A DNA stretch of 64,000 nt from Rhododendron vialii (taxonomy: Eukaryota > Streptophyta > Magnoliopsida > Ericales > Ericaceae). The notes beneath the pieces are model-generated. The model ran no database searches. It saw nothing but the letters and a program-made list of their open reading frames with translations, and was not told where the DNA came from. Location: contig NC_080568.1 of assembly GCF_030253575.1 (NCBI RefSeq), positions 21,413,501-21,477,500 on the forward strand. Direction: 5' to 3'. This document shows positions 41,442 through 64,000 of the stretch, in pieces. The first letter of the stretch is position 1. Every line of letters starts with the position of its first letter. The position numbers and the translations under genes are program-made.

Positions 41442-41442
<1 letters not shown>

Positions 41443-41534: not shown

Positions 41535-41538
<4 letters not shown>

Positions 41539-41929
41539 AGTTTCTAGGAATCCCAAAGAGTACAAACCCAACATTAACCTATTTGATAACCAGAACTTTG
41601 TAGCATACATGGCTTTCTGCAATTTTTTGGGTACAAGAGGAGGGTTTGTAGACTGAGAGAATGAAAGAAGAAAAAGGGGAAAAGAAATAGAGGGAGAATT
41701 TTTCATAAGTCCACTATACCACTTTCCAAACCTACTAAGTCCATTTCTAAATTCTATAACCCCCTAAGTCCACTAACCTATTAATAAGGATATGATAATC
41801 TTGATTAGTCTAATATACCCCCTGTTTTGAAAAAAAAATTTGCCCCGTTATTTCCTCAATTTCAAACATATCCATTTAATCCCCTTATAAAGCCCCAGCC
41901 CATCCCCCCCCCCCCCCCCTTCCCTTTTC

Positions 41930-42246
41930 CGGACGATCCAGCTTCTTCGACAGAAACCATAGACAAATCTCTCATTGCAGCCTCCTGTCGTCGTCGCCAT
42001 CACCACCCACCTCCCGTCACCGTCACATTCCGTTCCTGCCGATTACTCACTACCGTTGGTTCACTCCTCGCCTGCTCGCCACGGTGCACTCCTCCTCCTC
42101 CTCCTCTCCGCCCTTCGTCGCCATCCATGGTTGTTACCACCATGGCCGAGTTCCCGCCCTCCATCACCGCTACCACCGTCGTCGACACCTTCATCATCGT
42201 ATATCTGTTCAAAACATCAGGTGCCCTTCCAAATCGTAACAAATAA
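41930..42246 (+). other. GC-rich gene-like segment inside the nested element
   Basis: A GC-rich, CCN/TCN-rich patch with overlapping frames (41827-42246 and 41975-42319) in otherwise AT-rich DNA, followed by a GT-containing boundary. It looks like a piece of a plant gene (leader or low-complexity coding) captured by the transposon. No protein family is recognised. Confidence 0.4.
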
Positions 42247-42715
42247 CTCGATCTTCGTCACCTTGTGTCCCTCGGTATGGTTCTTTACATTTGAAGGGTT
42301 ATATATTCAGATCTGTTAAGGTTTTGTTTTTTTATACCTTTGTTTAGTTGTTGTTGGGTACCATATATGGTTATATGTTCAGATATATTAGGATTTTGTT
42401 TTTTGTACTTTTGATTAGCTGCTGTTGGGTAACATATATGGTTATATATATAGTTATACATGGTTATGGTTATATATTTATGCATATATAAATATATGGT
42501 TATATATTCAAGTCTATAAACGGTAGTCCAATTGCACTAAAACTGTTTTTTTGCTTGCTTTTGAATGTTTTTTGTACTTTTTTTGCTGCTGTTAAGAAAC
42601 ATATATGGTTATATATTCAGACCTATATGGTTAACATATATGGTTAATTTAGTGTTTTAATTGCGAGTATATATGGTTATATCAAACTCTGATCATTATA
42701 TGTTCTACTTTATTG

Positions 42716-43275
42716 AATTGGTCCGCGCAGCGGCCTTACTGACTTATTATTTGTGCAGTTGTTCAAAGGGTGAAGAGTATTAAGTTACATGTGAAGTCGA
42801 CTGTGAAGAAGGCGACGGTGACAAAAGGAAAGAAGTTACAAGATCTCTTCTTCTTCTTTTTCCCATTTTTTTTAGAGTTAAAAAGGACAGAATCTCATGT
42901 ATAACGTTATAAGATTATATGTTTATTTTTTGTCACACTTATTACGTTTTTTTGTGTGTATTTATTTATATGGCAAAATAATACATATAAGGTTGTTTGT
43001 TTGTTTTTGCATTGTAAACATATATAAAATTATTTATATACGGTTATCAGAAGCAAGTCAATGAAGCCGCTGCGCGGACCAATTCAATAAAGTAGAACAT
43101 ATAACGTTATATGTGCGTTTCTGTGCTGTGAAACTCCAAAAAAATAGAACATATAACATTATATGAAAGCTGCTGACTTGTGTACCTCTCAACAAAAAAA
43201 GAACATATATTGTTACTCGAAGCAAGTCATTGAGGCCGCTGCGCGGACCAATTCAATAAAGTAAAAATATAATGT
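42716..43275. repeat. Inverted and direct copies of a GCGCAGCGG-containing repeat
   Basis: TTGAATTGGTCCGCGCAGCG at about 42714-42733 recurs as its inverse CGCTGCGCGGACCAATTCAA at about 43070-43089 and 43236-43255. The latter two are direct copies about 166 bp apart, each followed by an AACGTT or AATGTT palindromic motif. Confidence 0.8.
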
Positions 43276-43648
43276 TATATGGGAGTTTATGTGCAGCGAA
43301 ACTCCAAAAAAAATATAGAACATAGACCATTTTTGTTAATATATGTACGTTCAGATGTAAATGTGGAATGTTATATGTTCTTGTATTATAATGAAAAAGA
43401 GATTTCAAAAACTCATATAACGTTAAATGCGAGCCGACGAATGAGTATATAACGTAAAATGTAAGTATCGCACGTTAAATGAGAACTGATGAACGAGTAT
43501 ATAACGTTATATATGTACAATTACGTTATATACAGTGTATCAGAAAAGGAGAATCTTCTGTCGCTTTATTCCAACGTAACTGCTGGGATTTCAAACGTAG
43601 AACGGATAATGGGCTAAAAATATGGGATTTGAATGGAAAGGGTAATCT

Positions 43649-43697
<49 letters not shown>

Positions 43698-44094
43698 TGG
43701 ACTCTGTTTCCCTTCTGGATATGGGAACAACGTGAATATGAGAGATTTTATAGGAGTGGGATATGGGAGATTTTATAGGAGTGAGATATATCAGATTAAC
43801 AGTTTTTAAAGGTAAGGATATTTTGGTCCTGAACTAATTCCTTTTTTAATTGAATTGGACTTAAGACCTCACCAAAACCTAATTAGTGGACTAGAGGGGT
43901 TATGAAATTTAGAAGTGGATTTAGTGGGTTACAAATATGCTATAGTGGACTTCCCAACAATTTTTTAAAAGAAATACGGTCAAGTTGCTAAGTTCGCTGG
44001 CGGCGAAGTTGAGAGAGAGAGAGAGATCGATCATCAATCTCGGTTGGGGTTTCTCTCTCTTATTCAATTTTCTCCAAATTCCCTTAAACCCTCC

Positions 44095-44420
44095 ATGGCA
44101 TTGTCTCCCCCGACTATCAAACCCAATTACAGCAACAACAACATCAATCACACCAAAATAGACGAAAAACAGGAGAAGAAGAAGACGAAGAAGTGGAGCG
44201 AAGACCATGGCCACACCTCTACTGATCCAAAACCACCGCCGCGGCCCCCTTATCATTAGGGTGTACACCAGACGATGTTGTCCCAAGAGGCCCAGGCTTC
44301 CCCTTGATTCCTTGGTAGTGGTAAAAGAAGAATTAGAAGAAGACGAAGCTGACACGAGCGTGCAACCAAAGAAAAAGCAGAAGACGAGCAATGAGAAAAG
44401 GGCAAGCAGAAAGCCCTAGT
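44095..44420 (+). other. Gene-like fragment near the right end of the Mutator-like element
   Basis: After a GA run and a CT-rich leader-like stretch, frames start at 44095 (MALSPPTIKPNYSNN...) and 44207 (MATPLLIQNHRRGPL... with an acidic, then a KKKQK basic end). Composition looks coding, but neither frame matches a family I know and both are short. Possibly a captured exon. Confidence 0.35.
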
Positions 44421-44707
44421 CGACACCATAGTTAGGAAATCGAAGAACAACTGTGTCAGTTTGAGGAAGGCTTTGATTCTCTACAACTTTTGGGGCTACT
44501 CTTGTGTGCCAAAGGGGCACTTAATGGAAGAAAAATGCCACATAAGTAATTTTTGTTACATAATGGACGGAATATGAGGCTAGGTGCCTGAATTTTGGAA
44601 TTTTGTAAAGCACATATGCCTAATTGAAATAAAGTAAAGTTCAGGTGTTTATGAGACATTGGGTCGAAAGCTCAGGTGCCATTTTGAAAATTTTCCGAAT
44701 ACTAGTA

Positions 44708-44943
44708 CTCCCTCCGTTCCAATTTAATTGTCCTTCGTTCTATTTTAACTGGCTAAAAAATGAATTATATCTTTAAATCCGTAGTGAATTTTATATCAAA
44801 TATAGATTTTGTTTGATAGATCTTGATTAGTTCTATAATAAAATATTTTTGAAATCACATAAAATATTATAAATTACAAAATATAATCAATTAAAAAATA
44901 GCATAAATTCCCAAAAAAGACGATTAAATTGGGACGGAGGAAG
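44708..44943. mobile_element. Stowaway-like MITE
   Basis: Ends CTCCCTCCGTTCCAATTTAA and (inverse) CTTCCTCCGTCCCAATTTAA, flanked by TA (44706-44707 and 44944-44945). Confidence 0.9.
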
Positions 44944-45245
44944 TACTTCTCAAAAGCGTGCTTACAATTTACGCTTTTTCTGAAAGCGTGTTTACAATAA
45001 ACCCTTTTCTTTATGCATGTGCAAAATGTTTACATTATAAACGTAGTTGCCAAGAGCGTTTCTTATAGGTGTGTTTTGGAACCACGATAAGGCAATTATG
45101 ATTAAGTTAATTTTCTTGCTTAATACGGCTTAACCAATGCTAAAAGCGTGATTGGAAAACACACATTTTTTAAAATGTAAATTGCAAATGCGAGTTAACG
45201 AAATTTGGGAATAAAGAAAAAAAAGCACGCTTTGTTTAATAAATC

Positions 45246-45498
45246 ACTCCCTCCGTACCAATTCTTCAGTCTCTTTTGGGAGTCCGTGCCACTTTTTAAT
45301 TGATTATATCTTGCAATCTATAATCTTAGGTGATTTTGAAAATATCGTTTAAAAGAGCTCATTGAGATCTATCAAATAATATCCATATTGCATATAAACA
45401 GTACTATCAATTAAAAGTTATAATTAATTATCTATACGGTTAGGATAAGATGACGGAGAAAAGAATAAGGACGGAGAAAAGAATAAGGACGGAGAGAG
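45246..45498. mobile_element. Stowaway-like MITE
   Basis: Starts CTCCCTCCGTACCAATTCTT and ends in GGACGGAGAGAG before TA. The right end carries a local duplication of AAAAGAATAAGGACGGAG. The left TA is not preserved. Confidence 0.75.
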
Positions 45499-45719
45499 TA
45501 GTTAAAAAAAAGCCCTGCTCGGTTAATGGGCTGAGAAATGGGGGACGGGGGAGTGGGAAATGAAAAAAAGAAATCGACGGTTTTTTGGTAACTACATTCG
45601 AACAAGTAACGGAGTTATGTGGAGTTATCTGACAGGGGATGTCAGTGTGATTTCGAATAACAAAGGGGTGTGCAGTGTGGTTGATAGTAATATAAAATAG
45701 AAGGGGTGTTAGTAGAATT

Positions 45720-46043
45720 GGGCGCTGCTATTCGCAGCCCTTTATTTTCTCCCATAGCCCGTTAAAAATTTTCAATTATACTCGACAATTAGTTACCGAA
45801 ATTGAGATATATTTTCAGCATCCAATTACCGAAATATAATATTTTTTTCAACAGTTATTTACCGAAAATGTATGTTCGGCAGTTGTTTGCAGAAAGTTTA
45901 ACATATTTTCAACATGTAGTTACCGAAATATAATCTTGTTTTCAACAGCTATTTATCAAAATGTTATGTATGATTTTCAACAACCATTTACCGAAATGTA
46001 GTGGGCTATGGGAGAAAATAAAGGGTTGCGAATAACAGCGCTC
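45720..46043. mobile_element. MITE (324 bp) with exact 8-bp target duplication
   Basis: Terminal inverted repeats of about 42 bp (GGGCGCTGCTATTCGCAGCC on the left; inverse of the right starts GAGCGCTGTTATTCGCAACC; both continue CTTTATTTTCTCCCATAGCC). GTAGAATT flanks both sides (45712-45719 and 46044-46051). Inside, about five copies of a unit with TTTACCGAAAT and TTTTCAACA lie in tandem. hAT-type by target size. Confidence 0.92.
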
Positions 46044-46612
46044 GTAGAATTTTAAACCACTAATAGAAACTCAAGTCAACCACACACGCAGCTGACAAGG
46101 CCTATTGCCACGTGGGAGTATTATGAAACCGATTTTGCGGTGGGAGATCAGTGAGAGTGAGATCTTGTGATGGCCATGTTGGAAAACTAATCAATCGATA
46201 CATATATCCTAGTATAAGAAAGAAAATGCGTTTTTCTTTTAAAACCATCCAAACCCTTCTTAATTTTCTAGATTTTTAATTTTTTTTTGTTTATAAAAAA
46301 AATAGAGAGAGAGAGAAAGAATTTGAGAGACGGACACGTAAGAGAGGGAGGGAGAGAGAGAGATGTGGGGGTTAAATATGGAGGAAAAGGTTCGTACAAC
46401 CAGACAACCAGGGCCGGCCCAAGGATTTTGGGTGTCCAAGGCCAATAAAAAAATGTGTGCCCTTAAAGAGTTAATACTTAACAATTTTTACAGCAACAAT
46501 CACAATACAAAAAAGCCAAACCAATATAAAGTTCTACTAATCATTATATACGAACACAAAATACAAAGTCTCCAAATAGGTAAATACATATTATCTCAAG
46601 AACGCATGAGTG

Positions 46613-49153
46613 TCACTTGAATATTACTCGTCTTGCATTTCTAAAAGCAAAACTATCAATTAAATTTGTATAATCCACCTCTTTCACCAAGTCATTTTCA
46701 ATTGATAACATGGCTAACCCATTTAGTCTTTCTTGTGACATGGTTGATCGAAGGTAATTTTTGATCAATTTCAACTTTGAAAAGCTTCTTTCTCCCGAGG
46801 CAACACTAACCGGTATAGTCAAAAGCACTCTATACGCATTCCATGTATTTGGGAAAGAGTCGGCCATAAGTTTGATAAAATTGAGCACTTCAATTGGTTT
46901 CTGCACTCCCCTTGGCAATACTTGTTTCAAGCATTTCAACTCTACAAACAAATCTCTCCCATCAATATCGGAAACCCCGCCATGCTTTAAAACTTCTTCA
47001 AGGTTGGTACAATGATTTTTCAAGCATTCATCACTCGAACTCGCCTTTTCCAAATCAAACAAGAAACCAAAATTCTTGTCATACACTTCAAATTGTTGGA
47101 ACTTATCTTTGAAGGAAGAAAGAGCTTTATCCACAATTACCAAGAAGTAATTCACTTTCATTGATTCTTCAGCAGAGTGTGTCACCTCGTCCGCAACATC
47201 TTCATCAAATTGCTTCTTTCTTTGAATGATGCGCTTTTCAACAAACTTAGGTTCAATCCCCATTTCATTCGCCATTTCCGTAGCATCAACCATTGCCTCC
47301 TCAAAATCAACTTTTCTGTAGTTCTCAAAATAATCAATCAGGCATTTTAACTTCTCGATAGCAAGGTATATGCACATGTCTTCACTTTGAAGAAACCTGC
47401 TCACAATGTTAACATCAAACAACAACTTGTACCAAATAGCCATGGCAAACAAGAACTCAAAATTCTCAAGTTCGTTCTTTGCAAGGGATTTTGCTTCACT
47501 TTGTGCTATCGACTCTGTCGTCGTGTCGTTCGCCAAGTCTACCAAAGCATCTCTTAGTTTTGAGGGATTGTATCTTATCGGCTTGATGCTTTCAATGTGA
47601 CTTTCCCAACGTGTTTATGACAATGTCTTAAGCGTGAGACCCTTCACATCTTTCAAATTGTCTTTTAAAATTGCCCACCGTTGGACTGAAGAGGAAAACA
47701 ACACATATAGACGTTGTACCACTTCGAAAAATGTTTTTGCTTTAGAACGAGAGTTGGCCATAACACAAAGAACAAGATTGAGACTATGGCAACCACATGG
47801 GGTATAGAATGCTCTTGGATTTACTTCAAGTACTCTTGTTTGCACACCCTTATTTTTCCCTTTCATGTTAGAGCCATTATCATAACCTTGTCCCCTTAAA
47901 TCACCAATATCAAGTTGAAGGCTAACTAATACTTCTTGAAGTGCACAAAATAGCCCCAATCCCGTCGTGTCATCCACCTTAAAAAATTTTAAAAAAAACT
48001 CACTCACCCTCACCTCTATTGGACTTGTTGAAATATCCACACATCGTATGACAAGGGACATTTGTTCTTCATGACTTACATCCGGGGTACAATCAAGTAT
48101 AACTGAATAATATTTAGCATCTTTGATTGTTGCAACAATTTTACTCTTCACTTCCGCCGCTAACATCTGTATCAACTCGTTTTGGATTTTGTGATTGAGA
48201 TAATGGTTATGAATCTCAGCCTTTTCAATTCGCCTCAAGTGCTCTTGCATTACTAGATCAAATTTTCCCATCATTTGAATAAAACATAAAAAAATTTCAT
48301 TATTCCTTTGGTAAATCTTCTCATTTTCTCCATGAAATGGTAAATTATTCTGCGCAAGTGCTTCCACAAGAGCAATTTCTCTCAATAATACCCCTCTCCA
48401 ATGTTCCCTCTCTTTAATGACTCGTTCTTGAACACTTTTGTCAATTGTTTGATTCTTCTGAAATCTTCTTTCCAACTCAATCCATTTGTTCATGCACGTG
48501 AGGTGCTCCCAATTAGTTTCATGACTTTTAAGCCTATCACTAATATTTTTCCAGTCTTGAAATCCATCATTGGCCAATTGAGTCTTGTTTCCTTCATTCT
48601 TGAATAATTTGCAACAAAAGCAAAATACTTTATTCAAAGCCTCCGAGTATACTAGCCATTTTCTATCATGTTTCTCTCCATTGGGTAAATGGCGAATATA
48701 GTGCACAGAAGAGAAATGTCTACTTTTCTCATTGTCATCCTTAGGAAAGGTAGCATCATCATTTCTTCTTACGGGACCTCTTTCAACCAATAAGTCCCTT
48801 AATTTTTGATCCATGTTATCCCAATTACATGGATCATCAATGTTTACAGGAGCGCATTCAACATTCAAGTCTTCATTTAGATTGACATCCCTCGAACTTT
48901 CATTACTACTCTCATTGACACATTGATAGGCTTCCTCACCCCCCAAATCCTTACATTCTTCTTCTACTTGTTCTTCATTCACCAAGTTTTCAGCGACATC
49001 AATCACCAAATTTTCGCGTTCTTCGACTGAACTTTGTACATTTTCGTTGCTTGAAAAGAACTTTTTAATAGCCCCTTTTTGAGAATTTATTAATGCTTCA
49101 GTCTTTTGCTTCTTTATTCTTTTCTGATGACCAGATAGTTGACGTTTAGGCAT
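46613..49153 (-). pseudogene. hAT transposase (TTF zinc finger/DUF4371 type), one in-frame stop
   Basis: One continuous minus-strand frame of 846 codons, broken only by TAA at codon 513 (47617-47615). The two halves are in the same frame. Order of parts: basic N-terminus (MPKRQLSGHQKR); acidic stretch; TTF-type zinc finger region about 145-190 (WLVYSEALNKVFCFCCKLF); the DUF4371 RNase H-like core about 200-510 (VILDCTPDVSHEEQMSLVIR, GQGYDNGSNMKGKNKG, CHSLNLVLC); then after the stop TRWESHIESIKPIRY and, near the C-terminus, the hAT dimerisation region (TIPVSVASGERSFSKLKLIK, RLNGLAMLSIE). The stop sits where relatives often have Gln before TRWE, so CAA to TAA by one C-to-T change is likely. Unspliced, the product would lack the dimerisation domain and be inactive. 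Confidence 0.93.
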
Positions 49154-49204
49154 GATGCACCTAGGTAAGAATTAAAAAAAGAGGCTTATAACATTATTAT
49201 TAAT

Positions 49205-50470
49205 GATGCACTAACCGATAATCAGATAAATCAGATATTTTTAAATTTAAGCACACCAACTAATGTCAACTAAATCAGCACAAATCTAAGCACCACCAGC
49301 CAGGGCTCTGCATTTAACAACACAAATCTAAGCACCACCAGCCAGGACTCTGCATTTAACAACATACGTACAATTCTAAGCACCACCAACCAGGGCTCTG
49401 CATAAGAAGAGAATACTTACCGATTTGAAGTCTCGCAAGTCGCAAGCAAATGGGAGAGAGATACTCTAAGACTCCGCAATGTGTAGTATATTAGTATATA
49501 CTGGTCCTGCATTTCAATTTCCAATAAGCTTAAACATAAATCAAGTGGAGAATAAAAAAAAAGGCCCTAATATGACTATCACTACTCAATTGAACTTAGA
49601 AATAAAAAAAAAAAGCATATAAAATTATTAATTAAAGAAAGTCTCACTTCTCATAAGCAATATTAAAAAAGCCCTAACAAATTTTATGTGGTCCTGCGGT
49701 CCTGCCTATAAAATTAAAAAAAGCCGAACTTTCGAAGAACTACGATTCATCGATGGCGAGAGGCCCAAGAATATACCGCTTAAATGCTTAAACTTATGTG
49801 GTCCTGCCGTCCTGATTTGGCGGTGTAAATTTTTTCAAAAGTCCTAACAAATTTTAAAACCCCTAATCTCAATCTCTCTCTTCCTATCTAGCGTGACCTT
49901 TTGTCCAATTTGTGACGGCATAAACTCATCAGCATAAACTCAGCATAAATAAAAATGCTTATTTATCAGAAGTTTCCTGACTTTCAAAGATCATTAGCCC
50001 CTTTTGTCTTTAAGAGAAGGGAATTGTTTTCAAGGTTCCCAAAACGAATTGTTTTAAGCACTAACCGATAATCAGATATTTTTAAATTTAAGCACACCAA
50101 CTAATGTCAACTAAATCAGCACAAATCTAAGCACCACCAGCCAGGGCTCTGCATTTAACAACACAAATTTAAGCACCACCAGCCAGGGCTCTGCATTTAA
50201 CAACATACGTACAAATTTAAGCACCACCAACCAGGGCAAGAGAATACTTACCGATTTGAAGCCTCGCAAGTCGCAAGCGAATGGGACTCTAAGACTCCGC
50301 AATGTATATTATACTAGTAGTATATACTGGTCCTGCATTTCAATTTCCAATAATCTTAAACACAAATCAAGTGGAGAATAAAAAAAGCCCTAATATCACT
50401 ATTACTAATCAACTAAACTTAATTAAAGAGATTCTCACTTCTCAATGTTCTCATAAGCAATATTAAATTA
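49205..50470. repeat. Internal direct duplication in the hAT element
   Basis: A block at about 49205-49640 (ACCGATAATCAGATAAATCA, GCACCACCAGCCAGGGCTCT repeats, CGCAAGTCGCAAGC, ATACTGGTCCTGCATTTCAA) recurs at about 50063-50420 with small indels, about 860 bp downstream. Within each block a unit with AAGCACCACCAGCCAGG is itself repeated about three times. Confidence 0.87.
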
Positions 50471-51222
50471 CAAACTTCATTACTTCAACAGTTCAACACA
50501 AAGTGGCAGCCGGCAGTGCCCTTCGGGCTTCGAACCTTCCCAGAATCCCAGTTCAAATTAGTTGATTAGTGTTAGTATATTACATTACAAACTTCAAAGA
50601 GAGTGAGAGACCTATTAACTATTGTCTATTGAGTATTGACTACTATAATACTATTGAAAGTTTGAAACTTGAAACTGAAAGCACCGCTGCACCGATCGGA
50701 AAAAAAATTACCTCGAGCTCGAATCTCGAACACAGACACAGACTCAAGGCCAGCCCAAAATCCCAGTTCGGCAGCTCCCCCTTCGGTCTTCGGTCCTTCG
50801 TTTGGTGAAAATCTCGAACACAGAGAAGTAGAGAACTAGAGAAGGGTGGGAATCGATCGTCCGTTTCAGTCTTTCAGATCAATTTCAGCTTCCCCTCTTT
50901 TTTTTCTTCGTTAATTTTTTGTTTTGTTTTGGGTGAGAGTGAGCCGGTGAAATGTTTGAGAGGAAGGGTTTCAATTAAAGACCATGTAGATCACTTATTT
51001 ACAAAAATGCCACCGAGCATTTTTTGGGCTTTGACTGGATCTATGGGCCACAGCCAGATTTTAATTGGAATGGGCCTCTTTTTTCCATTCTATCGGGCCA
51101 AAAAGACTTCTAGTCAAGCCCAAATATAAAAATTAGTGGAGTGCCCCTAAAATTTGGCCTTTTTGGGATGCCCAAGGCCCAGGCCTTTTGGGCCTTGGGG
51201 TTGGGCCGGCCCTGTAGACAAC

Positions 51223-53530
51223 ATGGACTACGTAAACTCAGTGCATGATTGTACAGCTTGAGATCCCAGAGACTGTTGAGAATTATTATAGTGATTTCTT
51301 CTGAGTAGATTGATTGGCTGAAATTGACTAGGATGTTAGCTAACCCTAATATCTTGGGGTTGGGTACGGGATTCTATTTTCTCCATTGAGTCTTATTAAG
51401 GGTATCATGTCCTGTGATTCAATAAACTTAGATCCTTTCAAACTATTGTCTCTAAAATCAAATTTGGTTTACTTCTCCCCTTAATGCAACCTGCTACTGC
51501 GGCTTCTGATCTACAATAGACATTTTCAAACCACATTATCTATTCTCTCTCATCTTATGTTCAATTGGTCCTACGCCTACCATCCCACAAAGGATTTCTT
51601 AGTCGCCCAACGCTCCATAACATACAATATGGCTAGTCTGGTAGCGGTCGGCAAGTATTAAATGTTAGGGGATGCTATATTGCGCTTTTTGTTGGGGTCT
51701 TTGTAGAGGAAAATAACAATGATGACTCTATTGGAAGTAAAACTCTGGTTATGCTGGCTCCAATGCATGTTGTATCCTCAAACTTTGTAATCCATGGTTC
51801 CATCATTCTCTGGAAATACTGTTGCTTATTCACATGCAGAAAGAAATCCTCACAAATACTGAATGAATGTGATTAGAGCAATGCATGTGGAATACATATT
51901 TTGAATGCTTTTCTTGCTCTGGTAGTTGTGTAGTGAGTACTTTTGTCCAACAATTTTTTTACCAATGACTGATGAGTGAAGAATATGATTGTTTGTTCAG
52001 TGAAAGATTTTTGGCATGAAAGCCTTCTTGTTTCAGTACGAGAAATGTAATTCTTTGTGCCCTCCTTTCTTGTTTTGCTTATTCATCTAACTTTTCATGC
52101 TCTCTTTGGTTTACAGGATGGAAAGATATGCTCGCTGGAAGACAAACAGGTATAACATCTCCCATTCCTGATCTGAATTCATTTAAGGAAACATAGCGAG
52201 GCAAAGTTGCTATGAGTACTGTATCAATTTGAAATGCTATGATATGACTATAGAAAGTTTATGAACCCAGTGAGAAAGAGATTAAAAACCTTTAGTGTTC
52301 GTTTTAATTGGCTGCTTATTATTAGTTGCTCAGTATGGGGGTCTAGGCGTCTAGCTTTATGATCATTGTATACTTCCCGGATCTTGTAAAGAACATGAGA
52401 ACATCTCATTCTTGTTTTGCGCCCAAAAATGTGATTTCTTCTAAGAAAGGTGTATTGGTGGTGGTTGAGTTATTGTGGTCTCTTTGCAGCACTGTTCAAA
52501 GTCCATCTCCATTAGGAAAAGGTGCATCAGTTTTGTTGCTAAAAAATGGGATAACCCTCCAATATGCTGTCAACTTTTTTCCTATTGATTAGGCCAGTTA
52601 CCCAACAGACGGGAGGTTAGCAGTTAGACTCAGCTTAACAAAAAGCGGTGAACCCGCCTAAGACCATGCTGAAATGGTGATAGACCCAAAACCCCCTTCT
52701 ACAACAACTCAACAAAAAGAAAATGCATGTTAGCCATAGGCCAATGGGATCAGTCATCCTCGTCGTCCTCATCATCATCGTCAGCTCTAGCCTTGGGTCC
52801 CACAACTAGCTACACCCGAAAGGAAGCATCGATCTCTCTAGGAATCGCTCTCAGTCTCAAAGGAAGACAAGCTCTTCTTTCTTTTTTCGTTTAGTGACAG
52901 TTCATCAAAACAATTGTCCAAGATTGCTAGATCGAGCACGCTACGCGCCTAGTCTTAAGTCCAAGAGCGGGTTGTATCCTCTTCAACATTTCGTGTAGCA
53001 CCTGATTGTGGCGTGAGGTTTTGGGTTAGCCTCTTTGCAGATTGGCACAAAGAGGTTCATTAAATATGCGCATTAAATTTTGTTAAAAAATGCACCAATT
53101 TGTTCAAAAAAATGGACCAATGTAATTTTCGATAGAGTTGGTGAAAATTAGGTGTGAGGATTTGTTCAAAACAAGGTAGTAGTAGGCGAAAAAATGAAAT
53201 GAAATTGGTTCATTTTGGGCCCTTAAAAGTAAGACACTAGGAGCAGAGCTGCTTGGTAGTAAAAAGAAGAAAGTTTGTGGCAGCCATGGATCGTTGTTTC
53301 TGGTGGGCGTTTTTGTTTCATATGCCAATGCATGCAACCTATGTCAGGACTTTTTCTTTTCAAATTTCTTTGTGGTTATCTACAAGTGAAAAAGGTATGA
53401 TTGGTGAAACTATGTGCCAGGTATCTTCCTGGCTTTATAAGCATTTATTTGTTGCTGAATTTAATCAGATGGAGGCTAATTATGTGACAGTGATTCTACC
53501 GTCTAAGGAACTATCTTTAATAAGAAACTG
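51223..53530. other. Intergenic, exon-like fragments only
   Basis: No complete gene. A plausible small plus-strand exon (GATGGAAAGATATGCTCGCT..., about 52118-52150) lies between a good acceptor (TTTACAG) and donor (CAG/GTATAAC). A frame at 52359-52592 follows, and another at 53253-53585 runs into duplicated DNA. I could not connect these to a family. Confidence 0.35.
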
Positions 53531-53532
53531 CA

Positions 53533-54095
53533 GAACTTTGGGCCTCTGCCATATAAAGAGTAGAATATCCCAAAGGTTAGTCTGATTGATTGGTAGGTTT
53601 GCTCTCCACATATTTGATCAGAGTTTGATTCTTGAGATCAGGTCGCAAGAAAGTAATTTATTGTGAATTTTCTAATCTTGGTGTGGATGACCTGCCTTTG
53701 ATCGGACTGGAGAGAAGATTACTTGAGATGTGCGCGAGTTGGCCCGGACACCCCTGACCGTCGAAAAATTACACTTATAAAGAGTAGATTGCAAGTGTTC
53801 TTCCTTTCAAGTTGACTCGAACTTCAAATTCAAAAGAAAGAGAAATTTATATTAGTCAAACTAACATGGTACTAGTGAATTATCTCTTTCACCATTGTAA
53901 AACAATATAAATCCAGTGCTTGGACTTTGATTGCTCAGAATTCATCAACGAAATTTGTTACCCTTTTTTTTGGCAAAGGCGCTGATCACTCTGATGAAGC
54001 CTTGAGGCATGTTTGGTTTCTGTTTTAAAAATCAATTCTACATAACGCTGTTTAAAATTCTTTTTGAAAACAAAGGCACTTATGTTTTCCAAATT

Positions 54096-54139
<44 letters not shown>

Positions 54140-54715
54140 AGGAAAGGGTAACAATGTCTACTACACTAAACCAACTATTTGACCTTCAAGAACAGATTTG
54201 CTATGTGCAATGTGGTTATTGCACCACCATTTTACTAGTTACTATTTGACCTTCAAGAACAGATTTGTTTAGATTTCACTGTTTATGCAATATATCCGTC
54301 TAATCTCATCCCTATATCGTTCTTAATGTTGGTTTTTATTATTTTCTCTATTTTTTTTTTTGTTTCCAAATTGATCAGGTAAGTGTGCCATATGGGAGTT
54401 TGACAATGGTGGTTACAGTGAGATGCGGGCACTGCCTAGCCTCCTCTCTGTCAACATGTTGAAAGCCTCTTTCATCCCTCTCAATCTCTTTGCTTCTCTC
54501 ACCCAAGATCATGAGGCATTTACTCAATACAATTACTACATTAATTAGCTTATCTACAGCTATCTGTTGTCAAATGGCTGAGAATAATAGAAGATTCTCG
54601 AATAAGGTTCTCCTCAGACCCTGCTTTCTGAATTATCATTTAGTTTCTCATTTGACGTTGAAAATTCTCCGTTTGGTTTTAATGTTGGTGCATTTGTTCT
54701 TCTTAATGTTGATTC
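53533..54715 (+). pseudogene. Truncated INO copy (upstream region, exons 1-2, part of intron 3)
   Basis: This block is a diverged copy of 58889-60855. Exon 1 copy 54154-54237 still reads MSTTLNQLFDLQEQICYVQC and ends at the same splice site. Intron 1 has gained a repeat of exon 1 sequence (ACTATTTGACCTTCAAGAAC, about 54241). Exon 2 copy 54379-54515 has a 1-bp loss (CTGCACTAGCC to CTGCCTAGCC) that breaks the frame within the zinc finger, and a 3-bp loss near its end. Exon 3 is gone, while a stretch of intron 3 (CATTTAGTTTCTCATTTGAC) remains. About 165 bp just before the leader, including the TATA region, is missing and replaced by a (CT)n run. It cannot encode a YABBY protein. Confidence 0.93.
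53568..53766 (+). mobile_element. tRNA-related SINE, copy 3 (inside the duplicated block)
   Basis: CCCAAAGGTTAGTCTGATTG at the head and TTGGCCCGGACACCCCTGAC at the tail. It corresponds in position to copy 4 at 58.9 kb, so it was present before the duplication. Confidence 0.8.
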
Positions 54716-55165
54716 ATATGGTGGTCGTTAGGGGACAGTATTAGCCACCATTGCCGTGACAGTCGATTGTGTTTAGCCCTGTCTTATGTTTCCTTTCCCT
54801 GCTTGTATGAACCCAACTTTGGTCAACGACCATATGAGTTCAATATCTTTTTTCGGTTCATCTGTAACTTTCTATTGTCGAATTGAACTTGGTAATGAAT
54901 CCTTCTGTTGAATTGATTGGTTTTCTTTAAATTCCTTGTGTTGTTGCTCAAGAATTTGGAAGTCCTGTTTTTCATCAGTTGGCCTGGCAGCGTCTACGTT
55001 GATGGAAAGTTTTTTGGCTTCACTCAGTGCTGTAATGATTCTCTAGGAACTTACTCATTGTTATATTACGGAGTTATAGTAGGTGGGGTCTGGGAAAGGG
55101 GGAGAGTGGCTTATGTTTGGAAGAGACGAAGAATACTGTAGAGTGGGACTTCGGGCATTTTTGAA
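54700..55165 (+). repeat. Copy of eS31 3'-flanking sequence joined to the INO copy
   Basis: From about 54700 the sequence matches 37988-38840: TTGATTCATATGGTGGTCGT, CCTTTCCCTGC, ATGAACCCAACTTTGGTC, GGTAATGAATCCTTCTGTTG, CTAGGAACTTA and TTATATTACGGAGTTATAG. It follows the INO intron-3 remnant without a gap. It lacks the 136-bp insertion present at 38490-38625. Confidence 0.85.
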
Positions 55166-55169
55166 ATTT

Positions 55170-57140
55170 TGGGGTGGGGGTTTAGGTTTTGTTTTGTCTC
55201 AGTTACATCTAAATTACGATCCTCTAGATGAACTTACGGGGTTTTGCTAGGTTCCTGGTATTTCTAGGCTAGAGAAGTAGATAGTCCTGTTTTTCGTTGG
55301 GTTTTTCAAGGCATGTTTCTAAAGTATATTCTACAACTTTTTACTTTCTCAACTTGCGAATTTAGTTATCAATGGATACGTAGGTTCCCAGATAATACTA
55401 CAGTAAGATACCAAAAACTGTCTTGAAACCCCAAGTTTAGCCACCTTAGCTTCATAATTAACTACGGTGATGCACAATGTTATGGGGTTAGCATGTGAAG
55501 TCAATATTGGCACGGTATGGCGACAAATTAATCCTGTCATGTCGCTAATTAGATTCATACAGCATGTGGCAAAGTTGATTAGTGTAATTTTAAATCGGCA
55601 TGGCCTACCTCCGAAGACCAGTACCAGTAGTGGTCTTTAACAAGTTTAGCATGACAGCCTGTACGTAGTGTATCAGCGTAGCCTCTCTCAAATGTGCAAC
55701 TTATGCGTTTGTGCAACTTATGCGGTTGAAAGGTCGAAACCGGACGCAAATGGTTGATAGAAATATTATTCAAGATATAAGCAAATTAATCAAAAGCCTT
55801 AGTCATACAATCACTGAATCCTCGAATCATCGGAAGAATTCTTAAATGAGACTACAAAACCAATTGTTACTTACTGGAGTATCTTTTAAACCGTAAACTT
55901 TTCATATCATGGATTTCCTCGATATGAATATAGGCAACTCCATTTTCATTAGTTTATTTTTTATCATCATTTTCATTAGTTGTTATTCCAGTCTTTTCTT
56001 CAACCTTCCATTTCAGTAGTGTAACAGGATAAATACGTAGACCTTGGTATTCGTACGTGAATGCAGGCTTGCTGTTCATTCTTATCATAATATCAATGCT
56101 TCGGTTGAAATAGAATCTATCCTTGTGGGTTCTAACTTTCTGTAGACGCCCTTGATAAAAAACTGGTACGAGCCTGGCCTGGTCTGAAACAAATTACTCC
56201 CACCATGTTGTCTAGCAATGGTTTATCCCTCAACTCAGAATGTGGCAGCTACATGTAGAGGATTTTTCGCTCACGGCGGAAGTCTATTTGGCACTTGTGC
56301 CAATTCCAAATGAAAAATAAAAATAGTAAAAAATAAACACGCCAATTTCAAATGTGGAAAAAAATAAACCCGGCAGTTGTGCTGTGATTATGAATTCATC
56401 GACGTGACTAAGATCGAAGTTTAGTTTCTATTTCAGGTCTTGTGTCAAAATAACGTGCCCTTAAGCCTGTGTCTGGATTATGATTTTCAGAGGGACTTTA
56501 TTTGGGAGACAAGTAAATGGAGAAGGAAAAGAAGTAATCGAAGCTTTCTTCGGGGTTTCCCATCCTTTCTGGTAGATCTTTCTACTAATTCCTTATCCAA
56601 ATTCAGACGAGAATGGATGGTCCAAACAGAAATATCCTCCTGGAGATGTTTATGAGTTCAAACAGCTGCTTGATACCCTATATGCCCCCCAAAATACTTG
56701 ATGTTGTACTAGTACTATAATGAAGGAAATGGAGTAGTTGTGAATATTGCAAATCTATAATGAAGGAAATGGAGTTTGAATCTTATGAAGGGTAAGTGTG
56801 AATCATGTGATCAAGGTTTTTGAACTATCTTCAAGTTTTCCTAAAACTAGGCGTTCGGACCGGCTTGCTCGCACGCACCTTGTTTAATCATGAGAGACCA
56901 ATTCCAGGCCCCATTTAAAGGCAGAGCAAAGCTCTAGATGCATTTTATGCAAAGGAGTTGATAGCACTTGAAATGTTTCAAACCTGGGAAATTAAGAAGG
57001 AGCATGCAAACCTTGACCACTAATCCAACCCCTTAGGCGATCTTCAATTTGAATTTGCATAAGTAAGTGAACCCTTAGCTTCATTACGTTGGGGTAGAAA
57101 ATGAACTTATATCAAGTTTCAATTTCCGTAAAGGCGCAAC
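55170..57140. other. Intergenic, no gene recognised
   Basis: AT-rich DNA with short frames only. A plus-strand frame at 56440-56655 and the ATG at 56613 show no domain. Confidence 0.45.
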
Positions 57141-57149
57141 CTTAGAGAG

Positions 57150-57483
57150 CATCTTCAACCCATGACTTCAAATTGGAGATGTCAATTTTTTTTTGAAGGC
57201 TTACGTGACATTTTGACATCTCCAATTTGACATCAAACCTTCCCTCTCCAACCCTTGCGTCAAACGGTTCTTTTTTAAAAACCAACGATAAATTTTTTTT
57301 TTTTTTTGAAGAAAATATAATTTGACATGAGGTGATGGTGATGTCAAATTTGGCAGCCATGAGGCTCCCTTCAAATCCACTTTAATTTTGCATAAGGAAA
57401 GGAAGCTTGGTTGGATAGGTTATAGCTGTCCAAAGGAGCCGTTACTTGCTCCACGTCACTTTTGATATCTCCCGTTGGAGATG
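57150..57483. mobile_element. MITE with GAGCATCTCCAAC-type ends
   Basis: Left CATCTTCAACCC and inverse right CATCTCCAACGGG. The inside carries inverse copies of TCAAATTGGAGATGTCA-like sequence. The 9-bp flanks CTTAGAGAG and CTTAGAGCT agree at 7 of 9. Confidence 0.75.
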
Positions 57484-57843
57484 CTTAGAGCTTGAGGTAT
57501 TAAGTGGGTAGGGGCCAGGGGCTATGGTCCCTCCATGGTATAAATGAGTCCTAGTGGATCACATGTATAGCCAGAGCACAAGGTTACCTAAAATAGGCTG
57601 TTATTATGACTTACAATGAAGTCTTAACTGTTCTTGTTTAGACTAAAACAGCAATCAAAAACTAGTTCATTTCCATGCGATATTTGACTGGATACATGTT
57701 CTTAGCTGTCAATTTGGTTGGTGTGTGCTACTGGGACAGAAGGAGAATCCACAATATGAAGACATTACGCGGAGAGATGGTATTGCTCCATTAGATTATT
57801 GGGTCAGCTAGGGATCTGAAGATGCCACCTCACTGTCTTAGAG

Positions 57844-58110
57844 CATCTCCAACGGAGAGTCGAAGCCATATTTTTGGCTTCCGGACCGAAGTTTTCTCCT
57901 CCAACGGGAACAAATTTGGGAGCCAAAAAATGGCTTGGCCATTTCTTTGACCATGAAAATGAGCAAGGGCATTTCTTGCAAGGGTTGTGATCTAATGACT
58001 CTTGGGAGCAATTCGTGGATGTGATCCAACGACTGCTAGTGGTGGCGGCCATAGAACGGTTTTAGCACCATTGTAGCAAGCCAAAAAAATGGCCAGAACC
58101 ATTGGAGATG
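57844..58110. mobile_element. MITE with GAGCATCTCCAAC-type ends, second copy
   Basis: Left CATCTCCAACGG and right CCATTGGAGATG (inverse CATCTCCAATGG). The inside has GCCATATTTTTGGCT and AAAAAATGGC motifs in opposite orientation. The flanking duplication is not clear. A single related end is at about 63230. Confidence 0.7.
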
Positions 58111-58757
58111 ATCTCACGTTTGAGCCAAATATTATTCTCGATGAATCAACTTTTTATTGCGAAAGTATCATAGAACTCTTATGCTTGAGTTGCGTATTAC
58201 TGAAGGAAATGAAAAATACATTTACTTGTACATGATCATCTTCAAAAATAACCATACGAAAGTGAAGAGAAAGTACAAGGGTTATTTTGTTGGATTCTCA
58301 TCAGCCAGGTACTGTACTGTTTGCATAATCGTAGCCTTTTCATATTCCTTAAAAGTCTGAAATTCCCAAAATGGTGGGGTGTGAGCATAACTTGGTAGCT
58401 CTAGCTAATTAATTTCTAAACTTTGGAGGAGAAAAAAGTAAAACTGCAAAATTAATAAAGGGGTCATGTGCATGCACGTGGGTGAGTGAAGGAGTACTTG
58501 GTTACAGCAGGTGAGTGGGTGTAGGGGGAATTAAGAGGACTAAATACAACACAGAAAGGGATGGTAAAATATAACATGAAACAAGAGAGCACAGAAAGCA
58601 GAGTGTACATCTCTTCCTTGTCAATTCAACCTCCTATCTTTCAACAAGAGACAAATTTCCAAGATGCCTTCTTAATTTCCCTCTGCACCAAGTCCTCTAG
58701 AAACTTCCCATGCCCCTCAAACATGGTAACTTAAACTCATTGCACTTCACTCTCCCA

Positions 58758-58820
<63 letters not shown>

Positions 58821-58888
58821 TTTAATAAGGAGAAAACAACACATGAAACCAAGAAGCAGTACTGCCGGTCAATTTATTTCAAGTCCCA
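58111..58888. other. Intergenic with (GA)n run
   Basis: No gene recognised. A (GA)n microsatellite occupies about 58760-58817. Confidence 0.6.
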
Positions 58889-58924
58889 TAGAACTTTGGG
58901 CCTCTGCCATATAAAGAGTAGAAT

Positions 58925-59136
58925 AGCCCAAAGGTTAGTCCGGTTGGTTGATTGGTGGATTTGCTCCCCACACAATAGATCAGAGTTCGATTATTGGGCT
59001 CAGGTCGCAAGAAAGTAATTTCTTGTGAATTTTCTAATCTTAGCTAGCGTGGATGGGCCTACCTTCGATCGGACTGAAGAAGGGATTAATTGAGATATGC
59101 ATGAGTTGGTCCGGACACACCTGCCTGTCGAAAAAA
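58925..59136 (+). mobile_element. tRNA-related SINE, copy 4, upstream of INO
   Basis: AGCCCAAAGGTTAGTCCGG at the head, GAGTTCGATTATTGGGCTC at the B box, GGTCGCAAGAAAGTAATTTC in the body, TTGGTCCGGACACACCTGC at the tail and an A run. Paralogous to copy 3. Confidence 0.82.
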
Positions 59137-59447
59137 TACACTTAAGTTTAAGATTGCAAGTGGTCTTCAGTTCAAGTTGACTTGACCTTCAAATACAAAA
59201 GAAATGGAAATTCATATAGTCAAACTAATATGGTACTAGTGAATTATCTCTTTCTCCACTGTAAAACAATATTTATCCAGTGCTTGGACTTTGATTGCTC
59301 AGAATTCGTCAACGAAATTTGTTACCCTTATTTGGCAAAGGCGCAGATCACTCTGATAAAGCCTTGAGGCATGTTTGGTTACTGTTTTTAAGAATCAATT
59401 ATACATAACACTGTTTAAAATTCTGTTTGAAAACAAAGAGACACTTA

Positions 59448-59841
59448 GGCTCTGTTTGTTTCGATGTAAAATGTTTTTTCAGAAAATTAAGTTCAAACTT
59501 TTATTTTTCGATGTTTGGTCGACACTTAAAAATATTTTCAGAAATCAACAAAATAGTGTAGAGGGAGGGGGGGCCTTAAACGTTGAAGATTTGAGAATAT
59601 TGAAATTAAACGTGAGTTAGGACTGACGATCGATGAAACTGAGCAATGAGAATTGCAGTAGAAGGCAACATGTTCATTTCGGAAAATAACTTACGAAAGA
59701 TTTGAGGGTAAGTCATTTTCATCCAATTGATGGAAAATATTTTACATGTAAAATATTTTTCTAATTTTTTACACAACCAAATACCGGAAAATAGATAAAA
59801 CATTTTACCGGAAAATATTTTACGCCCAAACAAATGGAGCC
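59448..59841. mobile_element. Tourist/PIF-Harbinger-like MITE upstream of INO
   Basis: Left end GGCTCTGTTTGTTTCGATGT and inverse right end GGCTCCATTTGTTTGGGCGT. TTA on both sides (59445-59447 and 59842-59844). The paralogous position at about 54078-54095 has a single TTA and no element, which confirms the ends. Confidence 0.92.
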
Positions 59842-60064
59842 TTATGTTTTCCAAAAAAAAAAAAAAACACTATTATTTTTTTCAGAATAATATAACTGGG
59901 ATGATCTTTTCGCAAAAAAAAAAAAAAAGTTTTCAAAATTTATTTCTCTTTGGGGGCCTTAATAAGATTTCATTAGCTATAATATTTTACTCTGACTTAA
60001 TAAAATTTCAATAACTGAATAGTGCCTTAATGATTAGTTCTTTTGTTCGAGACCAACAATCTTC

Positions 60065-60072
60065 TATATATA
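60065..60072 (+). promoter_or_regulatory. Probable TATA box of INO
   Basis: TATATATA about 70 bp before the start codon, in a stretch that is missing from the upstream pseudogene copy. Confidence 0.55.
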
Positions 60073-60141
60073 TCTACCCTACCCTTCTACTACTGAGACT
60101 CCACAATCCACTCTCTCTCTGTGGCCAAGGAAAGGGAAACA

Positions 60142-62570
60142 ATGTCTACTACACTAAACCAACTATTTGACCTTCAAGAACAGATTTGCTATGTGCAATG
60201 TGGTTATTGCACCACCATTTTACTAGTAATAATGCTCTTCAGCATTTCTTGATTTCACTGTTTATGCATTATATGCGTCTAATGACTAATCTCATCGCTT
60301 TGTCGTTTCTAATGTTTTGTTGTTATTCTTTAATTTCTCTCTCTTTGTTTCTTCAAATTGATCATCAGGTAAGTGTGCCATATGGGAGTCTGACAATGGT
60401 GGTTACAGTGAGATGCGGGCACTGCACTAGCCTCCTCTCTGTCAACATGTTGAAAGCCTCTTTCATCCCTCTCAATCTCTTTGCTTCTCTCACCCAAGAT
60501 CATGATCAGGCATTTACTCAATACAATTACTACATTAGTTAGCTTATTTACATGTATATTATTCCTACTTACATAGCTCCAACTGATAAAAAAAAATTGC
60601 ACACACACACTCTCTTTCTCTGCAGCCGAAACAAGAAGTTAGTCCTCGCAGAGAAGAAGCTGATGCTGATCAAAAGGCATTGGATATGCGGAGCCCATCG
60701 CTGGTCATCTCATCTGATGACGACGATGATGATGAGGAGGAGGATGATTTCATCCCGATGAATCACATTGTGAATAGGCGTACGTATTAAAGTCACTCAT
60801 TTAGTTTCTTATTTGACGTTGAAAATTCTCACTTCGGTTTTAATGTTGGTATGATTCTTGATCAATTGTGCAGCACCAGAGAAGAGGCCACGGGCTCCAT
60901 CAGCTTACAACAACTTCATCAAGTAAAGAAACTTCATTTATCCAAAAAAAAAAAGCTAGAGAAAGTCTGTGTGGACTGATATTGGCGCACAGATTTTGAC
61001 ACCGATATTGTGTCCGAAAATTTTGAATGCACATGGGGACTCAAAATAATATAACGACTCCACGTGCATCGGGCGATTCCGGAGACAATATATGTGTCCA
61101 GGTCTGTGCTCAAAATTCGACACATAGCATTGTTAAAAAAGAGAGAGTAATTAAACATGTATATTCCTATGAAGATAAAGTTTGAATTGTTAGTTCTAAT
61201 GGAAAGTGTACAAAGCAGAGAAGAAATCAGAAGGCTGAAGGCTAAACATCCCAACATGACTCACAAGGAAGCCTTCAGTGCTGCTGCAAAAAATGTAAGT
61301 TATAAAAACAAAATCTAACATCTGAACTAATTAGTCAGAAGAAATTAATTAAAATTCACATTTCAAGGGGAAACTAATTAGTTGGAAATTTCTTTCAAAC
61401 ATGTTTGAACAATTCCAGTGGGCCCATTTCCCACCAATTCAGTACAAAAAACATGGAGAAATCAGCTGTGGCGAGGGAGCTGATCAGAGGAAGATGCGAA
61501 GCAGCTCAGATGTTGGAGAGATATGAGGTAATGATTCTGTAATAGTTATTGATTTGTTAAATTGTAATAAGTTGGTACCTAGCTATTTCTTAGCTGAAAT
61601 TCAGTGTGATATTGATCAACAAAAACCATTTGAATGGGCCCCATAAGTGGGCGGTGGAGTCGATCCCCAAGAATTAAGCTAGTTGAAATGTGCGCACGTT
61701 TGCGTGACCGGACACCAGAATTATCAAAAAAACAAAAACAAAAAACCCATCTGAATTGATAGGTATACAGGGTACTCATCCCTTGGTCTGAAACCTTAAA
61801 ACTGATCATGGAAATGAACATGTAGTTTGCATGCTTGCCTGTCCTTAATTTTGTGCAGCCTGAGCATTCTAATTGTAGGTTTGTTCTTTTTTTGATTGGT
61901 AAAAGAAAATTTATTAATCATAGGTTTGATCTTGTTAGATAATCACATGGCATGATGGCAAGGATTATTTAGAAACTTCGAATACATATGATCGATTGAC
62001 CAAGTAAGGAACGTATGTTGAATCAAACACGACATCATCCTAAGCGCTCGATGTCTCAAGGCCGCTAACAGTAATATTTGATAGCTCAAGATTTAAGCTA
62101 TATCAAAATCGGTATGGATTCTTGATCTCCCGTCCAAGTTTTGAACTTGACGGGAAAGTCCAAATGCGGACCACACATTGATATAAGCAATAGTTCGAAT
62201 TTGCTGCACAGACTCTATAATTACTGGCAAATGTTTTTACTGAGCAAATCCGAACCATTGATCACATTAACAGATGATTTCAGATTTGGATTGTTCCGTC
62301 AAGTCCAAATTAAGGATCGAATTCCTATCAGAAATCTATTCGTGGCTTTATTTATATAGCTTGTCCCTTTATGAGAGTCGGAGTCAAATTTATGATGCCA
62401 CCCTTATATGGTACTTGAACACATGGCTTTCTGGTTGGAAACAACTTATTAATCACAGGTGCAAGCAGAAGGCGGCAATGGTTTCCATGAAAGAAAAAGG
62501 CTTCGACCAAGCTAGGCATTTCATGATAAGGTCAAAATCACCATTTGAGTACTGCATGGATGCCAGATGA
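60142..62570 (+). CDS. INO: YABBY transcription factor, INNER NO OUTER type
   Basis: INO promotes growth of the outer integument of the ovule in known plants and acts in the nucleus. Exons: 60142-60225, 60369-60509, 60626-60779, 60874-60922, 61219-61294, 61419-61527, with a probable last exon from 62459. The protein has a C2C2 zinc finger (CYVQCGYC at residues 16-23, VRCGHC about 42-47), an INO-typical stretch LLSVNMLKASFIPLNLFASL, an acidic linker (ISSDDDDDDEEEDD), and the YABBY domain (RPPEKRPRAPSAYNNFIKEE, IRRLKAKHPNMTHKEAFSAA, AKNWAHFPPIQYK). The start MSTTLNQLFDLQEQ matches INO rather than other YABBY groups. Intron 2 seems to use a GC donor (CAG/GCATTT). In the frame of the YABBY domain, translation stops at TGA 61524-61526 after 203 codons, shortly before the exon 6 donor. 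Downstream DNA still resembles the INO C-terminus (GNGFHERK, then in another frame ARHFMIRSKSPFE), so the tail is frame-broken or the exon borders differ. Confidence 0.92.
60985..61111. repeat. Inverted repeat in INO intron 4
   Basis: GCGCACAGATTTTGACACCG and the stretch GATATTGTGTCC on the left match, inverted, GGAGACAATATATGTGTCC and GGTCTGTGCTC on the right. Probably a small MITE. Confidence 0.65.
61618..61738 (+). mobile_element. Partial SINE tail in INO intron 6
   Basis: GTTGAAATGTGCGCACG, then GACCGGACACC and TATCAAAAAAACAAAAAC resemble the tail of the SINE family seen at 31, 53 and 58 kb. The head is not conserved. Confidence 0.4.
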
Positions 62571-62837
62571 TAGGAGCTGTTGTTTCTATTTTAGGTTAAG
62601 TTTAGGGTTACAATCAGTTTTCTTACTTTATAATTAGCACTTGTTGGAGTACTCGCAGTTAAAGGAAAAAAAAGTGTTGAAAAATCGACTACCGATGTAA
62701 TTTGTCCAAAGACAACTGAAACGTTTCAGTTCAGCTAGCCCTTGCTATGCATGTTTCTAGCTATATCGAGTACTGCTATGTAAATTCGTAGAAATTTACA
62801 AACTTTTTCATACTCACAAAGTCGAAATGGAGTCAGA

Positions 62838-62990
62838 AAGGGTAGCCGAGGTGGTAAGGTGCTCCCTTAATCATGATAAGGTTCTAGGTTCAAGTCTCAC
62901 CCTAAGGTCCTATTAATCAATCCCTTCCTCTTAGATTAGACTACAGATTTTTACACGTATACAGGAGGGGGCCGGGGGAAAAAAAAAAAA
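62838..62990 (+). mobile_element. tRNA-derived SINE downstream of INO
   Basis: GGTAGCCGAGGTGGTAAGG (A-box-like) and TAGGTTCAAGTCTCACCC (B-box-like) about 40 bp apart give a tRNA-like head. The element ends in a G-rich stretch and an A run (62979-62990). It differs from the other SINE family in the window. No clear target duplication. Confidence 0.6.
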
Positions 62991-64000
62991 CGCAAGAACT
63001 TATTGTGAATCCCGTCTATTTGAGATACCGAAATTTCACATTTTTTGTGCCAAAAAAAGTTTGTTACAGTAGTTTGTTTATTTATTTACCATTTTCCTAA
63101 ACAGCTAGCCATACAAAGCTGTTCTTCTGAGTTGTTGGTGTGGGAATTGGGGGGTGAATGTTTAGTATCTTAAGGTAAACCTCTAGGAGTTGGCGTAGTA
63201 TAGTGACCTCACAATTAGTGGCCTCAGCATCTCCAACGCTACTCTTTTTTTGCCTAGTAAAATTAAACTAAACAAAAGAAGAAGACAATATCTGCTATGC
63301 CTATTCGCTTCTGCCACTCTATCCAAATAATTTTGTTTGAATATCTACCCATATATAGAATTGAGTAGCAAAAAGTTGAGAGGAGGAGGGGGAGGAGAGT
63401 TGCTAGTCTTCTTTACTCTCTCTACTAGTAGCTAATGGAAGTAGACAAATATTGCAAAATGTGTAGCCAAGTATATGTAGGGCCTATTGGTATATATATT
63501 GAAATTTGGGATCGAATTTAATTCGAGCTGTATGTGCCGAAATGACCAACCGGATGCCGCCACTTGACATCCGCTTGGCATCAGGGTTCTTGGTAGCATC
63601 CCCTGATTCTCCAATAGAACCCGTTTTCGACTACCACTTACCTGTCATCACTTCAGCCTAATTTATAGGGGGGGTCTCTAGTTGTGGACTACTGATCAGA
63701 TATGGGAGAAAAGAGGTGTTGTCTTAAGGTATTAGCTCAATGCATGTAATCTGCCACTACAAATTAATTTTGAGGAATGAATTAATGAAGTTTGACAATT
63801 ACTTTTCGGTGTTGCTAAAGCCATAATTGTTTTGGTTAATGCCAAAAATTATAGGAGTGCATAAAAGATCGACTTGTACTATGTGCAAAGTACCAGATTT
63901 TTATACATTTTAATTTCGACATTAATTAATAATTACAGTTTAGACATTACCATTTCTCCCCCTTTTTTTTTTTTCCATGTTTTTTTTCCCCATGTTATGG
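62991..64000. other. Intergenic, MITE remnants
   Basis: No gene recognised. A GCATCTCCAACGCTAC end at about 63229 is like the 57-kb MITEs. At about 63800-63960 (ATGCCAAAAATTATAGG, GACTTGTACTATGTGCAA) lies a diverged relative of the 12.96-kb MITE. Confidence 0.5.

Follow-up and report, generated by a model that had tools for sequence, protein, structure and literature searches.

A block at positions 53532-55170 of the window (the whole 64,000-nucleotide stretch that was analysed, which lies on contig 12 of Rhododendron vialii) joins a partial copy of INO to a copy of the 3' flank of a ubiquitin-eS31 fusion gene. The block is real and can be explained through known processes. In the reading that we prefer, and to which we give an about even chance, a local tandem duplication around eS31 and INO left it behind as a scar, which was later patched and eroded. 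None of the titles or abstract openings found in a literature search names the block itself.

A partial INO copy abuts a copied stretch of the eS31 3' flank

The two halves of the block and their parents are arranged as follows:

36357-36827, + strand: ubiquitin-eS31 fusion gene (PF00240, PF01599)
37981-38828, + strand: parent of the flank copy, 1.15-2.0 kb 3' of the eS31 stop codon, carrying a later MITE at 38503-38627
53532-54689, + strand: partial INO copy (INO'; source 58890-60850), seen by self-BLAST, alignment and genome search
54690-54691: INO'/flank' joint, with a few bases (about 54690-54696) matched to neither side
54692-55170, + strand: copy of the eS31 3' flank (flank'; source 37981-38828), seen by self-BLAST and alignment
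58890-60850, + strand: parent of INO', within and before INO, whose start codon is at 60142

Self-BLAST of the window and pairwise alignment recovered the block, with all pieces on the + strand and collinear inside each part. By self-BLAST, the INO half comprised the pairs 53532-54075 and 58890-59438 (86.8%, E=0), 54123-54558 and 60111-60552 (87.2%, E=4e-151), and 54636-54689 and 60797-60850 (92.6%, E=2e-15), and the flank half the pairs 54692-54873 and 37981-38160 (88.5%, E=2e-60), 54869-55062 and 38309-38491 (85.1%, E=1e-57), and 55097-55170 and 38752-38828 (84.4%, E=8e-15). Along the + strand the order is eS31 flank, INO', flank', INO. A preliminary description of this DNA had reported INO upstream sequence, exons 1-2 and part of intron 3 followed by a match to the eS31 flank, and both methods bear this out; its coordinates and distances hold (5.36 kb to INO and 16.7 kb to the eS31 flank), the INO pairs from self-BLAST agree with its partial INO duplicate on the same strand, and the self-alignment that it proposed returned the collinear match of 54692-55170 to 37981-38828. 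The block is larger than was then described, since a third copied piece adjoins its left side.

In the alignment, flank' lacks parental positions 38155-38308, the MITE at 38503-38627 and further short parental stretches. It possibly extends to 55292-55338, as scored against an older flank repeat at 37877-37975: the score of 55229-55338 against this repeat was equalled by 0.05-0.5% of background segments, and that of the extension alignment was reached in 1 and 3 out of 200 shuffles. Flank' may therefore retain a tail that is absent from its parent, which would then have lost sequence just past 38828 after the copying.

We searched the genome (13 contigs, 532.6 Mb) with three queries. The block gave at least 45 matches, namely itself, 3 to INO, 4 to the eS31 flank and 37 SINE-like ones (40 of 613 candidates scored), so that, the dispersed SINE aside, INO and the eS31 flank are the sole parents among the matches listed. 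The protein search gave at least 12 (5 to INO, 3 to INO' and, on contigs 1 and 7, 4 weaker matches that we took for other YABBY genes). The eS31 region gave at least 64: itself, 3 to the block, 29 to the MITE at 38503-38627 (roughly 125 bp, with at least 29 genome matches), 1 at 37378-37616 and 30 to the ubiquitin part. Positions 54710-54870 had no match in a plasmid collection, a result that tells nothing about their origin. The SINE-like dispersed repeat inside the block (about 53553-53791) has at least 37 other genome matches. Members of this family in the window lie at 30193-31489 (two copies near 30-31 kb), 53565-53775 and 58919-59132, the last being the copy upstream of INO and 53565-53775 its duplicate inside the block.

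The parents are probably old neighbours

The hand-spliced model of the INO parent encodes both the N- and C-terminal YABBY domains (PF24868 and PF04690). From the character of the protein and from the eS31 neighbourhood, we take this gene to be INO and not another YABBY. In the same model, intron 2 would begin with GC, not GT (60509-60511).

The preliminary description emphasised that the block unites copies from two separate places. Two sources there are, but the oddity was overstated: eS31 (RPS27aA) and INO carry the consecutive Arabidopsis gene numbers At1g23410 and At1g23420 in published papers, and the numbering suggests that they are adjacent in that species and probably old neighbours.

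An older repeat also lies inside the 3' flank of eS31: 37230-37798 matches 38246-38828 at about 70-77% (37230-37379 against 38246-38403 at 77% by self-BLAST), and one of the two units holds an additional insertion at about 37383-37620.

Both halves have diverged from their parents to a similar extent

Substitutions amounted to 40/480 (8.3%) in the INO non-coding part without the SINE, 31/211 in the SINE and 44/447 (9.8%) in the flank. The comparison of the two halves suggested in the preliminary description thus gave the same age within error, whether the SINE was left out (Fisher p=0.43) or included (71/692 versus 44/447, p=0.84). Each parent moreover bears a MITE that is absent from the block; the one in the INO parent (59448-59841, 394 bp) is flanked by a TTA duplication, and its empty site is preserved in INO'. 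The missing MITEs argue that the copy is not a recent artefact.

These figures bear on two further explanations. A misassembly at 54.7 kb is scarcely credible, because both halves lie 8-10% plus indels away from their parents and a misjoin would reproduce the parents letter for letter; the assembly, besides, comprises 13 contigs. It is also very improbable that INO and the eS31 flank were duplicated in two unrelated events whose products abut by chance. The older internal repeat indicates that the eS31 flank duplicates independently, but the similar divergence and the direct abutment would then both be coincidence.

INO' is broken as an INO gene, but its exons are conserved

INO' matches INO from a point 1.25 kb upstream of the INO start codon, with two stretches absent, and contains upstream sequence with the SINE, exon 1, intron 1, exon 2, the beginning of intron 2 and, past the skipped exon 3, 54 bp from intron 3. 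INO' also lacks the INO stretch that carries a TATA-like run (about 60060-60075). Its exons and small inserts are:

54154-54237, + strand: exon 1, 84 bp, identical to INO
54241-54267, + strand: 27-bp exact repeat of the exon 1 stretch 54174-54200, adjoining the altered exon 1 donor
54379-54515, + strand: exon 2, with one synonymous substitution and two deletions, one of 1 bp that shifts the frame and one of 3 bp
54560-54635, + strand: substitute of about 76 bp in place of INO exon 3, from the alignment

As an INO, this copy is a pseudogene: exon 2 carries a frameshift, the exon 1 donor is altered, exon 3 is replaced and, with INO' ending within intron 3, the later exons are missing. Assuming INO-like splicing, the 1-bp deletion shifts the frame into a stop after 55 residues. 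Since the copied sequence takes in intron 1 and some of intron 3, copying occurred at the DNA level, and we rejected retroposition (a processed pseudogene). The 27-bp repeat resembles a locally templated insert, and 54591-54621, inside the exon 3 substitute, agrees exactly over its 31 bp with contig 7 (36888330-36888360) and resembles a templated repair insert. Short templated inserts, as in break-repair filler, are thus found within INO' and argue that breaks here were patched. When templates were sought for the unmatched bases, those at 54690 had none, and the 27 bp at 53505-53531 shared just a word of 11 bp.

The exons have followed another course than the rest of the copy. Exons 1 and 2 differ from INO by 1 substitution in 221 aligned sites, a synonymous one, against 8% or more in the introns and upstream sequence, so the label 'decayed INO copy' given in the preliminary description suits the broken frame and structure and the diverged introns and upstream region, but not the exons, where substitutions are almost nil. 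With constrained parental exons and a freely drifting copy, about 11 substitutions would be expected in the 221 sites; the corresponding P is 1.1e-4 by a plain binomial and 0.0026 when real stretches are resampled with half the changes, the latter being the safer figure. At the full rate, with both lineages counted, none of 2492 overlapping stretches of equal length from the non-coding and third-piece alignments had so few changes. By class, there were 0 nonsynonymous changes in about 174 sites (P=1e-4) and 1 synonymous change among about 51 sites (P=0.03 if the full neutral rate is assumed, P=0.26 at half that rate). By contrast, intron 1, between the two exons, differs at 13 of 106 sites, and two exon-like stretches of the third piece show 6 mismatches in 64 aligned sites. 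Two indels did arise within the same 221 exon sites, which counts against a simple reading of the conservation.

This pattern suggests one of two histories: INO' once worked as a second INO, or gene conversion acted on it. A single substitution in 221 exon sites, with no nonsynonymous change, is in keeping with a copy that stayed complete and useful through most of its existence; exons kept by selection for that long would mean a complete second gene that was broken late. Alternatively, INO, 6 kb away, refreshed the exons through gene conversion. Intron 1, being diverged, speaks mildly against conversion, and the scarcity of synonymous changes mildly in its favour. We regard it as possible, though on the doubtful side, that INO' was long a complete working second INO and was broken only recently, or that its zinc-finger exons are still useful; spliced like INO, INO' would encode a 55-residue zinc-finger peptide.

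A third piece and a mosaic spacer lie to the left

The sequence left of INO' contains the following features:

46220-46388, + strand: truncated piece of a dispersed repeat, adjoining the third piece
46409-51214, - strand: hAT transposon inserted into the third piece; the two copies of its 8-bp site repeat (CAGACAAC/TAGACAAC) differ at one position
51215-53504, + strand: third piece, a copy of contig 12 positions 7671981-7674364 (minus strand), with an extra stretch at about 52610-52990
53505-53531: 27 bp separating the third piece from INO'

The first 23 bp of the third piece lie left of the nested hAT, at 46386-46408, and its source is on the same contig, 13.8 Mb away, where the hAT insertion site is uninterrupted. 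The hAT is near-intact in appearance, with its transposase spread across two open frames.

The left spacer is a mosaic of MITEs, the repeat piece at 46220-46388, the hAT, the third piece and stretches without a match elsewhere; it also holds a dispersed element of about 930 bp (39694-40624) and an inverted-repeat element (40952-44701), and its first part, 38829-39129, is neither right-spacer sequence nor a recognised repeat and has no match elsewhere. In the right spacer, just two MITEs, a short dispersed repeat (56907-57037) and minor stretches have matches. Between the two spacers (38829-53531 and 55171-58890), self-BLAST found no pair at E up to 1e-5, and a search at word size 7 (best 40 rows per comparison) returned GA-type repeats and a few short words. 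In ten tests by local alignment, the observed score was equalled by 1-47 of 50 shuffles; the lowest count, 1/50, came from 55171-57130 against 38829-39245 under lenient scoring. The block accordingly shows three marks of a tandem duplicate, namely a single strand, a position next to the parent and tandem order, but homology over a whole unit including its spacer was not found.

This result makes a one-step patch a live rival, in which a break in the eS31-INO spacer was repaired from the distant locus, then from INO and then from the eS31 flank; we give it roughly one chance in three. Such a patch requires no lost spacer, and PMC3445842 and PMC4423477 describe how breaks in plant DNA are filled with copied gene pieces. 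The three pieces stand in a row, with gaps of 27 bp and a few bases. The nearness of the third piece to INO', 27 bp away and of similar age, is what a single patch event would predict and is counter-evidence to the tandem duplication. The ages are indistinguishable (127/1786, 40/480 and 44/447): the third piece, at 7.1%, is slightly less diverged than INO' and flank' pooled without the SINE (84/927, 9.1%), with p=0.08 by two tests, while an earlier three-way comparison that included the SINE had given p=0.016. Against the patch, INO' and flank' would show the arrangement of a tandem joint, in order and strand, only by chance (about 1 in 8, by our estimate), and exon conservation is unexplained if INO' arose as a fragment; the flank parent seemingly lost its tail later regardless of the patch.

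A transposon could also have brought the pieces together. We take the family of the truncated repeat at 46220-46388 to be Helitron-like, and this piece adjoins the third piece at 46388; moreover, those pieces whose sense can be discerned share one orientation. Nevertheless, that a Helitron picked up three gene pieces and delivered them here is improbable. Members of the family continue some 130-150 bp past the break point of the piece in the window. Words of 14 and 16 letters from the family had no match right of the block with up to 3 mismatches, and looser words of 12-13 letters gave chance-level matches alone, for example at 55473. The three candidates for a hairpin plus CTRRT in 54600-64000 lie within the SINE, a MITE and an INO exon (the whole window has 7 on the + strand and, as a control, 9 on the - strand). 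Two of the three sources are also no more than 17 kb from where the block sits, and capture of two fragments from so close by is improbable; nor is the block framed by inverted repeats. A complete Helitron was rejected, as a 3' hairpin with a CTRR end was not found within 54600-64000, and so was a Pack-MULE: the longest of 16 inverted pairs in 53200-55700 measures 17 nt at 88%, and none frames the block. Elsewhere in the window, tandem repeats at 4806-5074 end like the 3' end of the 46220-46388 family (ATCGAACGGACACAATGCTAAT), a terminus that we presume may be a Helitron end.

Discussion

We prefer a local tandem duplication over the patch because INO' and flank' stand in tandem order, two of the three sources are near and the exons are conserved. 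The copied unit would have run from the eS31 3' flank (37981) to an end in, or beyond, INO, and a second unit set behind the first would have created the joint at 54690, where INO meets the eS31 flank on the strand of both parents and between them. Had the joint simply formed in intron 3, INO' would have been partial from birth, and exon conservation would then be unexplained. Probably, INO' was complete initially and selection maintained it, or conversion refreshed its exons; a complete initial INO' requires one additional deletion, which would later have removed its 3' half. As the spacers share no detectable match, this history also needs the loss of one whole spacer copy, presumably that of the first unit, and the gap may have been filled by break repair and transposons, including the 2-kb piece from 13.8 Mb away. 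The preliminary description had invoked two duplications or a template switch; neither is required for the joint, since a single tandem duplication yields it, while patching from several templates stays a serious rival on account of the third piece.

The block resembles known tandem gene duplications with pseudogene decay in its single strand, its nearness to the parent, its retained introns and a joint between the parents, and it is unlike them in that one unit's spacer was not recovered, the joint is intragenic and a foreign piece adjoins. With the filler-DNA patching of plant breaks, reported by Wicker and co-workers and described in PMC3445842 and PMC4423477, it shares gene pieces beside transposons and small templated inserts; it differs in that two of its three pieces come from the immediate neighbourhood and stand in tandem order. 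In Monotropa hypopitys, two similar INO transcripts, MhyINO1/2, are described (PMC5941816), and the authors suggest that they may stem from alternative splicing or from a duplication that occurred recently in the Ericales. There, too, a second INO shows little divergence, although the Monotropa sequences are transcripts and the present locus holds a broken fragment.

The locus illustrates one route to a chimeric gene block, in which a single local duplication is followed by patching, and, beyond the exon conservation, reflects ordinary plant genome turnover. Most angiosperms, according to the literature, have a single INO. If INO' was indeed long a working gene, this plant lineage carried two INO genes, unlike most angiosperms, and conserved exons amid drifting introns would mean that an extra dose of INO was long tolerated or used.
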